34,512 nucleotides of DNA from Opitutales bacterium (GTDB lineage: Bacteria; Verrucomicrobiota; Verrucomicrobiia; Opitutales; Oceanipulchritudinaceae), in the NCBI GenBank assembly GCA_020831525.1, contig JAFIGH010000054.1, positions 1 to 34,512 on the forward strand, given 5' to 3'. Shown here piece by piece: positions 15,766 through 34,392 of the stretch. The first letter of the stretch is position 1. Each line of letters starts with the position of its first letter. A program made the position numbers and the translations under genes. The notes under the pieces are model-generated. The model did not search any database. It had not been told where the DNA came from and saw nothing but the letters and a program-made list of their open reading frames with translations.

Positions 15766-18009
15766 TTATTCGGCGGCAGCGGGCGTAGCTTGCTGGACCT
15801 TCATTTCGTGTTCGTGTTTTTTCGCGACGAAGAGGTCTGTGGGCACGGTGCCGAGCGCTTCCATAACCGTGGACACGCCTTCCTTCACCTTGAGCATGCT
15901 GTCCTGGTGGAGCGTTTTCATGCCGGTTTCCATGGCGACGCGCTTGATCGCGGCGGAGTCGCCGCCGGCGTTGATGATTTTGGTCAATTCGTCGTTGTTG
16001 CGCATGAGTTCGTGAATGCCGACGCGGCCTTTCATACCGTTGTCGCCGCATTTCGGGCAGCCGTATTCGCTCGCCCGCGGGACTTCGCCGAGCCAGCCGT
16101 CGAGGGCGCGCTGCACGATCTCGGCTTCATTGCCCTCCGGCGTGTAGTGGGTACAGCAACTTTTGCACACGCGGCGCATGAGCCGCTGGGCGCAGACGAC
16201 GAGCAGCGATGCGGAGATCATGAACGGTTCGATACCCATATCCGAAAAACGGGCGATGGACGAAGGGGCGTCGTTGGTGTGGAGAGTGGAGAGAAGGAGG
16301 TGACCGGTGAGCGCTGCTTCAACGGCGATCTCGGCGGTTTCCTGGTCGCGGATCTCACCGACGAGGATGACGTCGGGGTCCATCCGGAGGTAGGCGCGCA
16401 GAGCCCGTGCGAAGGTTAGGCCGATCTGCCGGTGCATCTGCATCTGGTTGATGCCCGGCACGGTGTACTCGATCGGATCTTCGGCGGTCTGGATGTTGAT
16501 GTCGGGAGCGGCGATCTCCCGCAGCGCGGAGAACAGGGTCATCGATTTACCGGAACCGGTCGGTCCGCAGTGGAGGATCATGCCGTAGGGCTGCACGATG
16601 CACTCGCGGTAGCGCTTCAGGTTTTCCTCGGAAAAACCAAGTGCGGTGATGGGCAGCGCCGACTTTGTCTTGTCGAGGATACGCATGACCACCTTTTCGC
16701 CGAAGTTCATTGGTCCGGTCGCAATACGCAGGTCGATGTCGATGTTCTTTTTTGTGAAGCGCTTGAAGATAATACGCCCGTCCTGGGGCAGTCGCTTTTC
16801 GGCGATGTCGAGGTCGGCCATGACTTTGAGGCGGGCGACAAGTGCGCCTGTCACTTTGCTCGGAAGATGCAGCTTTTCCGCGCATACGCCGTCCACGCGG
16901 TAGCGCACGACGAGTTCCTTCTCCTGGGGCTCAATGTGGATGTCGGAGGCACCGGAGATGTAGGCGTCTTCAATGATGCGGTTCGCCAACTGGATGATGG
17001 GCGCGGAGTCCTCGTCGGAGAAATCCTCGTCTTCGGAGCCATCCTTGGCTTCGGCGTATTCCACGCCGATGACATCGGCGATCTCGGCCATTTCCCCGCT
17101 GTCGATCGTCGGTCCCTCGTCCTCCGAGGCACCGGCACCGACGTGTTTTTTCAGCAGCGTATCGATGACGGAATGCGGTGCGACGGCGATTTCCTCGACC
17201 TTGAGATCGGTCGTAGTCTGGAACGCTTCCCGGTTCGGAAAATCGAGCGGGTTGGTCATCAGCGCGGCCACGGAGGTCGGCGACAGCCGTTTGTACGGAA
17301 GTATGTGGGTGCGGCGGATGATTGCCTCGCCGACGGCGGAGATGAGGTTTTCGTCAACTTCTAGATCCTCTTCGCCGAGGACGAGGCGGTTCTCTGTGAA
17401 GCGCGCGATAAACTTTGCTGTTTCGCGGTCGTCCGGGCGGTAACCGGGGTCGAGGGCGCGCTGCAGGAGGGGGGCCGAGTATTCCGCCACTTCCTCGAGA
17501 AAGGCGAGATCGGACTCCGTGAAGGCGTCCTCGTCGGCGAACGGCTCTTTGTTCAGCACTTGGATGGCACCGATGACCCGCGTCGATGTCTTGAGCGGAA
17601 CGGTGAGCATAGAACTGATCTCAAAACCTGTCTGCTGGGGCATGGAGTGCATGTTGCCGCCGTCCTCCTCGAAAAAGTAGAAGGCGGGTCGTCCGGTCGA
17701 GATAACCGAACCGACCACTCCCGTGTCTTTCGGCAGTCTTAATTTCAGAAGTTGCTCACGCTTCTGTACAAACTCGGACTCGCGCTCCGGGAAGTCCTCC
17801 CAGAGGGTGGGGGAGTAGTAGACATACTCGAAGGAAATCTGGTCGTCCTCCAGAAGGTAGAGCGTCATTGATTGCGCCTCGAGGGCCTCGACGACTCTGT
17901 TTGAGGTCAGCTCAATGACCGATTCCACATCCTCCCGGGTCGGTTGGGGCTTGGATATGACTTTGAGAAGGAGTGTGCGCCGGAGCGCACTGGACATGTT
18001 CTGATTCAT
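15766..18009 (-). CDS. GAF-domain PilB/GspE-type ATPase
   Basis: The 747-residue protein begins with a GAF-like domain (about residues 20-190: [67 protein letters not shown]). A linker with acidic stretches leads to a GspE/PilB motor. ASDIHIEP, the Arg-rich DGRI region, Walker A GPTGSGKS near 482, [19 protein letters not shown] near 542 and [10 protein letters not shown] are all present. A zinc-type set CKSCC...CPKC lies near 613-650. It would power pilus assembly or type II secretion, with the GAF domain sensing a small ligand. The start at 18009 is chosen because AGGAAA precedes it by 3 nt; the frame is open a further 9 codons. No pilM/N/O/P/Q or secretion genes are adjacent. Confidence 0.92.
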
Positions 18010-18012
18010 CAC

Positions 18013-18018
18013 TTTCCT
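18013..18018 (-). promoter_or_regulatory. Ribosome binding site deciding the GAF-PilB start
   Basis: On the minus strand AGGAAA is followed by GTG and then the ATG at 18009. This favours the start MNQNMSS over the upstream in-frame ATG at 18036. Confidence 0.6.
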
Positions 18019-18112
18019 GGATGGCTGCTGCCGCATCGGAGGGCTCGCCGCCGGGCGGAGATTGAAATGACGGTGGATACGGTTTTTGCATTTGGTGTAA
18101 AGGCCTACTGAA

Positions 18113-32618: not shown

Positions 32619-32756
32619 ATGGGCGACAAATCACCGAAATCAAAGCAGAAGAATCAGAACCAGAAGCAAGGCAAAGCCGCTGCTGTGGCAAAAGAAAAAC
32701 AGCGCCAAATCGACAGCAAGAAGATCGGCGCGCCCACCGCCTCGAAGAAGAAGTAG
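32619..32756 (+). CDS. Small Lys/Gln-rich protein, 45 aa
   Basis: The protein begins MGDKSPKSKQKNQNQKQGK and continues with Ala, Lys and Gln to a KKK end; it is highly basic and probably disordered. Short proteins with the same MGDKSPK start are found as uncharacterised genes in diverse bacteria, which supports it being real. AAGAGG lies 10 nt before the ATG at 32619, and the frame upstream of that ATG is not protein-like. It may bind nucleic acid. It converges with a 53-residue membrane-protein gene 11 bp downstream. Confidence 0.75.
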   Translation: MGDKSPKSKQKNQNQKQGKAAAVAKEKQRQIDSKKIGAPTASKKK

Positions 32757-32995: not shown

Positions 32996-33247
32996 TTAGA
33001 CGCCGGACGATGGCGCGAGTGCCGCGCGGATTTCGGCCCGCTCGTCGGCAAATGACTTCGTGGACGGCTCTTTGCCGGCCTTTGCATACCAGTAGGCGGC
33101 GTTGCCGTCGTCGCCCTCCTCGCGGTGGAGGTTGGCATGGACCCATGCGCCCGCCGCGTCATCGCGTGACTGCACGAGGGTGTGGGCGGTGTCCCACTCG
33201 CCGCGGTCGGCGAGATCGAGGGCTTGGAGGAGTTCGGATACATCCAT
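32996..33247 (-). CDS. Short conserved hypothetical helical protein, 83 aa
   Basis: The protein reads MDVSELLQALDLADRGEWDTAHTL..., then AAGAWVHANLHREEGDDGNAAYWYAKAGK, then a charged helical end. This alternation of short helices with WVHA-LHR and NAAYWYxxAG motifs resembles a small, widespread uncharacterised family whose members look like TPR-type helical hairpins. It has no signal peptide or membrane span. The ATG at 33247 is chosen over 33283. It is read from the same strand as the response regulator just upstream and separated from it by a hairpin. Confidence 0.75.
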   Translation of the reverse strand: MDVSELLQALDLADRGEWDTAHTLVQSRDDAAGAWVHANLHREEGDDGNAAYWYAKAGKEPSTKSFADERAEIRAALAPSSGV

Positions 33248-33300
33248 GAATGTGACCGAAGCACATTCCCGGAGATTTATCAAACACCTGTTGGAGCGGT

Positions 33301-33325: not shown

Positions 33326-34285
33326 TTACTTCTTTTTGGCGGCGGCCTTTTTCGCCGCCTTCTTCACGGCTTTCTTGGCAGCTGCTTTCTTTGCCGCCTT
33401 CTTGGCGGCTTTTTTCGCGGTTTTCTTGGAAGCTTTCTTTGCAGGTGTGCCGGTAATCTCTTCCTCCAGGCCGACGGGTTCGGCCTGAGCCTTCACGGCA
33501 TTCTTCGCCGCCGCTTGGCTGCGGAGGCGTTTGCCGCCGGTGTCGCTGTCGGCGCCCTCTTCGTCGATATTGTAGATGTAGCCGACGCCGTGGATCGTCT
33601 TGTAGGCTGTCATGGGCAGTCCGTGGTCCGCGTAGGTGCTGCGGATTTTGACGATATACTGGTCGAGACTGCGGCTGCGGACATCGGCGTGGATTCCCCA
33701 GACTGCGTGGATGAGGCTGCGCCGCGTGACGACGTTGTTCGAGTTCTGGTGGAGGTAGGTGAGTATGCCAAGCTCCTTGCGACCGATTTTCTCGACTGTG
33801 CCGTCGTCAAACTGCACTTCCATACGGATCGGATGCACGGTGGCACCGCAGAAGCGGAAGGGCTCCTGAGTGAGCGTGGCGTTCTTCGTCACGTGATAAT
33901 CGAAAGCGGTTTCCGCCCGGCGGAGCACAGCGTGGATGCGCGCGATGAGTTCCGGGAAGCTGAAGGGTTTGGTGATGTAGTCATCGCCGCCCATCTCCAG
34001 ACCCTTGACCTTGTAGATTTCGGAGTCGTCGGCGGTGAGGAAGATGATGGGCACGCGGATGTTTGCCTTGCGCAGGTCTTCGACAAGGGAAAATCCCGTC
34101 TGGTCGGGCAGGTTGACGTCGAGCAGCAGTAGATTGGCGAAATTGTTGCTCAGGAAGCGGATGGCGTTGTGGGCGCGGTGATACACCTGGGTGAGCATTC
34201 CGGAGGCTTCCAGTTGCTCGGAAATCATCTGGGCGATTTGTTTGTCGTCTTCGACGATAAGGATGAGTGGTTTCGGTTTTGCCAT
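33326..34285 (-). CDS. OmpR-type response regulator with histone-H1-like tail
   Basis: The 319-residue protein has a receiver domain (residues 5-120) with acidic pocket VEDD at 11-14, phospho-acceptor Asp56 in LLLLDVNLPD, Thr84 and Lys106 in YITKPF. A winged-helix DNA-binding domain follows (about 150-250: RKELGILTYLHQNSNNVVTRRSLIHAVWG... and TIHGVGYIYN). After a linker, residues 280-319 contain 19 Lys and 16 Ala in KKAAKK-type repeats, as in eukaryotic histone H1 and some bacterial nucleoid proteins. The tail should bind DNA without specificity and help the regulator stay on it. The ATG at 34285 is chosen over the upstream frame start. No sensor kinase is in the window. Confidence 0.93.
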   Translation of the reverse strand: MAKPKPLILIVEDDKQIAQMISEQLEASGMLTQVYHRAHNAIRFLSNNFANLLLLDVNLPDQTGFSLVEDLRKANIRVPIIFLTADDSEIYKVKGLEMGGDDYITKPFSFPELIARIHAVLRRAETAFDYHVTKNATLTQEPFRFCGATVHPIRMEVQFDDGTVEKIGRKELGILTYLHQNSNNVVTRRSLIHAVWGIHADVRSRSLDQYIVKIRSTYADHGLPMTAYKTIHGVGYIYNIDEEGADSDTGGKRLRSQAAAKNAVKAQAEPVGLEEEITGTPAKKASKKTAKKAAKKAAKKAAAKKAVKKAAKKAAAKKK

Positions 34286-34337: not shown

Positions 34338-34392
34338 TTTACAAGTCTCTTTGCATGGCAATTTACAAATGTAAACCGGTCGAAAATTTACA
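34338..34392. promoter_or_regulatory. Three TTTACA repeats upstream of the response regulator
   Basis: TTTACA occurs at 34338-34343, 34362-34367 and 34387-34392, spaced 24 and 25 bp, and the middle copy is part of the palindrome TTTACA-AA-TGTAAA. On the minus strand they read (T)TGTAAA(A/T)(A/T). They sit 53-107 bp before the response-regulator start in an AT-rich stretch and are candidates for operator sites, possibly for autoregulation. Confidence 0.35.

Follow-up and report, generated by a model that had tools for sequence, protein, structure and literature searches.

A response regulator with a lysine/alanine-rich, H1-like C-terminal tail in one genus of the Oceanipulchritudinaceae

A conserved response regulator of an Opitutales bacterium (family Oceanipulchritudinaceae) ends in a lysine/alanine-rich tail that resembles the C-terminal domain of linker histone H1. 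It is fairly probable that the regulator gained a linker together with this tail once, in its genus, and that the tail functions as a non-specific DNA tether beside the winged helix. Each part of this arrangement has a precedent: the regulator family is known, other bacterial DNA-binding proteins bear H1-like tails, and CarD is a transcription regulator that does so as well. The combination of a response regulator with an H1-like tail is unusual. The gene is located in the window, the whole stretch of 34,512 nucleotides that was analyzed, and its features are collected in Table 1.

Table 1. Positions of the regulator gene, its domains and its promoter elements in the window
Feature	Position	Strand	Basis
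OmpR/PhoB-type response regulator gene, 319 amino acids, stop codon included	33326..34285	-	translation, Pfam, orthologues
Receiver domain, residues 8-117 (Asp13/14, Asp56, Thr84, Lys106)	33935..34264	-	PF00072, residues
Winged-helix DNA-binding domain Trans_reg_C, residues 166-237	33575..33790	-	PF00486, recognition residues
Linker, residues 240-279: acidic start, then basic KRLRSQAAAKNAVK stretch	33449..33568	-	sequences, dN/dS, pLDDT
Lysine/alanine-rich H1-like tail, residues 280-319 (19 K, 16 A)	33329..33448	-	composition, congeners, model
Palindrome TTTACAAATGTAAA, candidate operator, own promoter region	34362..34375	.	site counts
Further TTTACA half-sites near the palindrome	34338-34343 and 34387-34392		

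The regulator core and the composition of the tail

The frame is translated without an internal stop. Pfam assigns Response_reg (PF00072) to the N-terminal part with an E value of 1.1e-24, above the curated cut-off, and Trans_reg_C (PF00486) to the following part with an E value of 2.9e-13 and 50.1 bits against a cut-off of 26.2. The phosphorylation residues are in place: Asp56 is the Asp of LLLLD, Thr84 lies in FLTA and Lys106 in YITKP, and Asp13/14 make up the acidic pocket. The receiver of the OmpR/PhoB type is thereby complete in its acidic pocket, phospho-acceptor Asp, Thr/Ser and Lys. A preliminary description of this DNA had read the gene as an intact OmpR-type regulator with Asp56, Lys106 and a winged helix, which translation, Pfam and the residue check confirm; its count of 19 Lys and 16 Ala in the last 40 residues is exact. 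No named equivalog (PhoB, CreB, WalR/YycF and others) among the best 25 of 102 NCBIfam matches clears its curated cut-off, the top scores being 151.1 bits for the Bacteroidetes-type PhoB against 270 and 149.1 bits for CreB against 273.

The regulator was matched in 15 of the 17 genomes of the family (E<=1e-40). In the order, a search that scored at most eight candidates per genome, and may thus have missed some regulators, matched it at E<=1e-30 in 166 of 273 genomes, in 120 of the 183 good genomes and in 66 of 88 genera. The term "core" is too strong for the whole order, because 107 of the 273 genomes (63 of the 183 good ones) have no match at E 1e-30. Of 146 orthologue rows, 145 have Arg205, Ser206, Gln209 and Tyr210 and one has a gap; Asp56 is kept in 137 of these rows, among which some genomes are counted twice. 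Trans_reg_C and HisKA proteins were counted in 18 genomes that were chosen because the regulator is present; ten of them are of about 1.0 Mb or less, and several are incomplete. The regulator is the only Trans_reg_C protein found in nine of the ten small genomes, and the tenth has two, both matching the query. HisKA matches are absent from three of the ten, and the others have one or two. With its near-invariant recognition helix and broad retention, the protein appears to have been retained for a long time as a regulator with an unchanging DNA target.

Asn replaces Asp56 in seven examined rows of family f28 (L172-L176, L178 and L179, from six small genomes), and Asp56 is lost in L171 and L180 as well. 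A HisKA match is absent from one genome of that family (G158), and another (G049) has one. In the orthologues lacking Asp56 the regulator has possibly been freed from phosphorylation. No partner kinase is seen beside the regulator gene in the window, where 227 bases of the contig remain upstream of the start codon. A HisKA match is found on the regulator's contig in the congener G010, at a distance of about 8 kb from the gene, and kinase-like neighbors, judged by eye only, are present in G005 and G008. Elsewhere in the window, positions 15769-18036 encode a type II/IV secretion ATPase with GAF and MshEN domains, and a possible 45-residue lysine/glutamine-rich small protein (MGDKSPKSKQ...) was read by eye at 32619-32753.

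The AlphaFold2 model, made with 16 sequences (mean pLDDT 73.5, pTM 0.43), has defined receiver and DNA-binding domains, and its pLDDT drops below 50 at residues 127-138 and 244-290. The tail is modelled as a single helix of modest confidence at residues 286-318 (block pLDDT 66-77). Disorder can be assigned to the linker but is a supposition for the tail, because the stretch below 50 runs through residues 244-290 but residues 286-318 are modelled as a helix. The basic KRLRSQAAAKNAVK stretch of the linker is common to the present gene and that of G010; between the two, linker residues 240-271 have a dN of 0.071 and a dS of 0.333.

Lysine and alanine account for 35 of the 40 tail residues and for a fraction of 0.126 in residues 1-239 of the same protein. 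With the latter as background, the binomial probability of at least 35 such residues in 40 is about 1e-26. The next richest of the 30 open reading frames that a simple codon-composition rule yields in the window, the regulator gene included, reaches 18 of 40. Tandem Repeats Finder reports a period of 12 with 69% matches in the tail, its best row having a period of 39 with 80%. The codons are mixed (AAG 11, AAA 8; GCC 7, GCG 4, GCA 3, GCT 2). DNA encoding the pattern KKAAKKA, with one mismatch at most, has 18 places in the present genome against one for the reversed control. The binomial probability, the weak periodicity, the mixed codons and the reversed control rule out chance or a fresh DNA repeat as the origin of the tail. 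An assembly artefact is unlikely, because G010, which belongs to the same genus, has the identical architecture.

As in the C-terminal domain of H1, the sequence is rich in lysine and alanine and strongly basic (net charge of residues 272-319, +16), its disorder being supposed. Motifs of the S/TPKK type are a feature of linker histone H1. The tail contains neither SPKK nor TPKK, its single Pro lying in TPAKK, and it has no KPAA repeats of the AlgP/PhaF type. Pfam gave no histone match, and hence no globular winged-helix H1 domain, for the whole protein (E<=1) or for the tail alone (E<=10), and the Hc2 model (PF07382) found no match in either at the same thresholds. Judged by its domains, the protein is not a histone, because it contains neither the globular H1 domain nor a region fitting the Hc2 model.

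Distribution and maintenance of the tail

The tail is present in all three congeners examined, namely the present genome, G010 and G009. The G009 copy is a fragment at contig ends: the regulator gene is cut at residue 177 by the end of one contig, and another contig (C98) starts inside a lysine/alanine tail, which is followed there by a small gene. A similar small gene, at 32999-33283, lies just downstream of the regulator in the window and has no Pfam match.

In seven other genera of the family the tail is absent from all 12 complete genes, the products of which extend for 13-37 residues, counted from where the GVGY motif starts. On the basis of these genes an ancestral tail in the family was rejected. 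The three congeners make up one side of a branch with a support of 100/99 in a maximum-likelihood tree calculated from 43 cores, and one change accounts for the tail. The simplest history would be a single gain in the ancestor of the genus; an older gain followed by several losses is less simple. The preliminary description had suggested looking for conservation of the tail in orthologues, and had named its absence from close orthologues as evidence against the proposed role. Such conservation holds for the three congeners and breaks down in the sister genera, so that this objection applies in part. Given this distribution, the function of the regulator in its many tail-less relatives cannot depend on the tail.

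An order-wide comparison was made with 158 best rows, drawn from a subset of the 166 matching genomes (100 fetched stretches plus loci from the family and order searches). Eleven rows were set aside: L011, cut at a contig end and with its tail on another contig, and ten without the G.GY motif, the C-termini of which are, by eye, not rich in lysine and alanine. The other 147 rows, in which some genomes occur twice and about a dozen are unrelated OmpR proteins from other phyla, have a median of 9 residues after GVGYIY. Only the present protein and that of G010 have at least 40 residues with a lysine plus alanine fraction of at least 0.5 after this motif in these rows. L122 has 24 residues with a fraction of 0.50. 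L046 (Verrucomicrobia bacterium WAS_Bin_16, JAGVUB010000128.1) has its own basic tail of 61 residues, rich in Pro, Thr, Lys and Ala (lysine plus alanine 0.38), which is probably independent, because L046 sits on a long branch within a different clade. L049 and L054, for which the tblastn match seemed to reach the tail, were rejected as carriers, since, counted from where GxGY starts, their frames run for 8 and 11 residues.

Between the congeners, the core has a dS of 0.42-0.65 and a dN of 0.002-0.014 (residues 1-177 or 1-239). The C-terminal 46-48 residues of the three proteins have lysine plus alanine fractions of 0.73, 0.79 and 0.83 and net charges of +16, +18 and +16, in a comparison that consists of three congeners, one of them in pieces. 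Neutral evolution of the present 40-residue tail was simulated 2000 times with point changes only, an assumed GC content of 0.62 and a transition bias of 2. The mean lysine plus alanine fraction fell to 0.47 at 0.3 changes per site, 0.34 at 0.5 and 0.23 at 0.8; at 0.5 its 5-95% range was 0.225-0.45, the net charge was 5.0, and a stop codon appeared in 62% of the runs. The composition and charge of the tail have been held, unlike under neutral point mutation, because the fractions of 0.73-0.83 in the congeners exceed the neutral 0.34. The main weakness of this test is that slippage or conversion between repeats, which lies outside the neutral model, could rebuild the lysine/alanine composition. 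The repeat register, the positions and the indels of the tail do vary, and its dN is 0.19-0.31 with a dS of at least 2.5, a high value that probably reflects shifted repeats. Variation in the manner of a neutral expansion had been named at the outset as another outcome that would speak against a function. The composition, as far as point mutation is concerned, does not behave in this manner.

These data bear directly on the alternative of a tolerated low-complexity extension that has hardly any effect or none, and that arose in a lineage prone to lysine/alanine repeats when the old stop codon was lost and repeats slipped. The absence of the tail from other genera of the family and its variable register and indels agree with such an origin, as do the lysine/alanine blocks on other proteins of the family and the 34 places of the KKAAKKA pattern in each of two congeners, against 18 in the present genome. 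However, the tail has retained its composition, its net charge and an open frame across a core dS of 0.42-0.65, where the neutral model predicts their loss and the appearance of stops. The tail codons are mixed rather than plainly copied, and the 18 places in the present genome are confined to five spots. A tolerated extension is considered unlikely.

Proposed role of the tail and lysine/alanine blocks on other proteins

The KKAAKKA pattern occurs in 15 of the 17 family genomes, with zero to two reversed-control hits per genome. One of the five spots in the present genome is a Fur-family protein (PF01475) with a lysine/alanine-rich tail, and the place on contig C24 (L019) has no lysine/alanine-rich open reading frame under the filter used. 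The Fur-family tail extends 63-64 residues past the Pfam match in all three congeners (L255, contig C147, 15595-16161, in the present genome; L256 in G010; L257 in G009). A comparable tail is found in none of the 17 other family rows, including two second Fur-family proteins of the same genus, and four of these rows have shorter basic ends (L258, L259, L263 and L274); the comparison covered 20 of the 24 matches. The genus therefore has lysine/alanine tails on two types of regulator, response regulator and Fur-family, that are without them elsewhere in the family. The parallel suggests that the way in which regulators hold DNA has shifted more broadly, beyond a peculiarity of one gene.

Further carriers were identified by Pfam from a single scanned protein of each kind: an RHH protein whose lysine/alanine tail is very long, a DksA-like zinc-finger protein with an N-terminal block, and ParB. 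Those recognized by eye are sigma-70, topoisomerase I, a short-chain dehydrogenase, an aminopeptidase, the linker of a dihydrolipoamide acyltransferase and a carbohydrate-binding-like protein. With carriers spread across the family genomes, the lysine/alanine block is, as far as sequence can tell, a habit of the family, mostly though not only on nucleic-acid-binding proteins. RHH proteins with lysine/alanine tails of about 100 residues or more and a histone-like make-up occur in seven family genomes (L238, L239, L248, L253, L213, L208 and L216).

By combining this information, it is possible to describe how the tail might work. A 3' extension encoding a flexible linker and a lysine/alanine-rich tail would have been gained in the ancestor of the genus. 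The free tail would be disordered and would cling to the DNA backbone by its charge, perhaps becoming helical once bound. Positioned next to the specific winged helix, it would act as a non-specific tether, raising the occupancy or residence of the regulator and helping its search for sites. DNA binding by the tail, longer residence and an effect on expression are all suggested by analogy with the systems compared below. A strong specific binding place might be the palindrome in the regulator's own promoter.

The exact sequence TTTACANNTGTAAA has 11 sites in 10 of the 17 family genomes, being almost unique in each, and ten of these sites lie just upstream of the regulator gene, the eleventh being elsewhere in G010. 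The reversed control gave no site in the 17 genomes. Counted by promoters, the exact site is present in 10 of the 15 family genomes that have the gene and in none of the other five. TGTAAA, on either strand, is found in 19 of 24 upstream stretches, extracted from 44 loci tried and possibly counting one genome twice, against 3.1 expected. The natural guess is that the palindrome would be an autoregulatory operator. Alternatively, the palindrome may be the operator of a different protein.

The tail may also have a partner other than DNA, because the blocks of the family are also found, by eye, on proteins that look enzymatic or carbohydrate-related. The tail might then bind another polyanion, such as polyphosphate, ribosomal RNA or other RNA, and thereby set where and when the regulator is available. 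AlgP, which has a KPAA tail, is reported to localize to polyphosphate granules (PMC9239181), and lysine-rich stretches of YihI and Rnr to bind polyphosphate (PMC12345225); in the family, too, blocks are carried by proteins without an evident DNA role. Against this, the protein that bears the tail is of a sequence-specific DNA-binding type, as are other carriers (Fur, RHH, ParB), and binding to a different polyanion is regarded as quite unlikely. It is very improbable that the tail is a regulated or sorting element, in which acetylation of lysines tunes DNA affinity or the tail drives condensates. Its 19 lysines in 40 residues would offer many modification sites, and a published study concerns the CobB1 deacetylase and HupS of Streptomyces (PMC11229371), but no result of the present analysis supports acetylation or condensates.

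Returning to the tether, a broader version of it may be considered, in which the lysine/alanine module has been added repeatedly to regulators as a general chromatin tether, and the response regulator and the Fur-family protein have become signal-gated nucleoid proteins whose phosphorylation or ligand state changes occupancy across the chromosome. This extension is doubtful. The coupling of signal input to nucleoid state that the preliminary description had proposed is likewise a conjecture. The distribution of the tail provides a clean natural experiment: one regulator, with a DNA-reading helix that is near-invariant among the relatives examined, exists with a tail in one genus and without it in sister genera. 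Such a pair allows the contribution of a non-specific tether to a sequence-specific bacterial regulator to be addressed directly. Should the tail turn out to leave DNA binding unchanged, the case would be a warning against inferring function from low-complexity tails.

Comparison with known systems

RegX3, DrrD, PhoP and MtrA of the OmpR/PhoB family share the receiver and the winged helix with the present regulator. The closest solved structure is that of RegX3 (2oqr, E 1.1e-31, residues 8-236). The tail is not covered by solved relatives, unlike the two domains: among 26 sequences (E<=1e-20), no best stretch extends past residue 242. A literature search of partial coverage found no published response regulator with an H1-like lysine/alanine tail.

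Long basic tails or proteins built from lysine-rich repeats are known from AlgP and PhaF, with their KPAA tails, and from chlamydial Hc2 (PMC9239181, PMC2848022), the latter varying in repeat number (PMC2848022). They differ from the present tail in having KPAA or other repeat units, and, in the available portions of these sources, they are not fused to a response regulator. Lysine is reported to be enriched in low-complexity regions of DNA-binding proteins (PMC6821194). In actinobacteria, TopA, HrdB, Ku and HupS have lysine repeats, and the domain of TopA that holds them confers high processivity (PMC7398561). As in the family described here, H1-like repeats are thus found on unrelated DNA-bound proteins of one lineage. 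The actinobacterial carriers, however, are an enzyme, a sigma factor, a repair protein and a nucleoid protein, and no response regulator is named in the part of that paper available.

PgFur of Porphyromonas gingivalis is a specific regulator with a lysine-rich C-terminal end, and is also a parallel to the tailed Fur-family protein of the present genus. This end is reported to have mattered in vivo and to have been unnecessary for promoter binding in vitro (PMC6613475), which calls for caution in reading the present tail as a tether. PgFur differs in its Fur fold, in the shortness of the end (4 or 13 residues were removed in the tests) and in having no response-regulator receiver.

The myxobacterial CarD (PMC8156234, PMC4374960) is a folded transcription factor with a disordered, basic, HMGA-like or H1-like C-terminal tail that is absent from the related CdnL. 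The C-terminal region of H1 can substitute for the basic tail of CarD, and without this tail CarD retains a reduced level of function. Only the tail of CarD binds DNA; the N-terminal part has RNA polymerase as its partner instead. In the present regulator, the domains of which are unrelated to those of CarD, the folded part is itself of a DNA-binding and phosphorylatable type.
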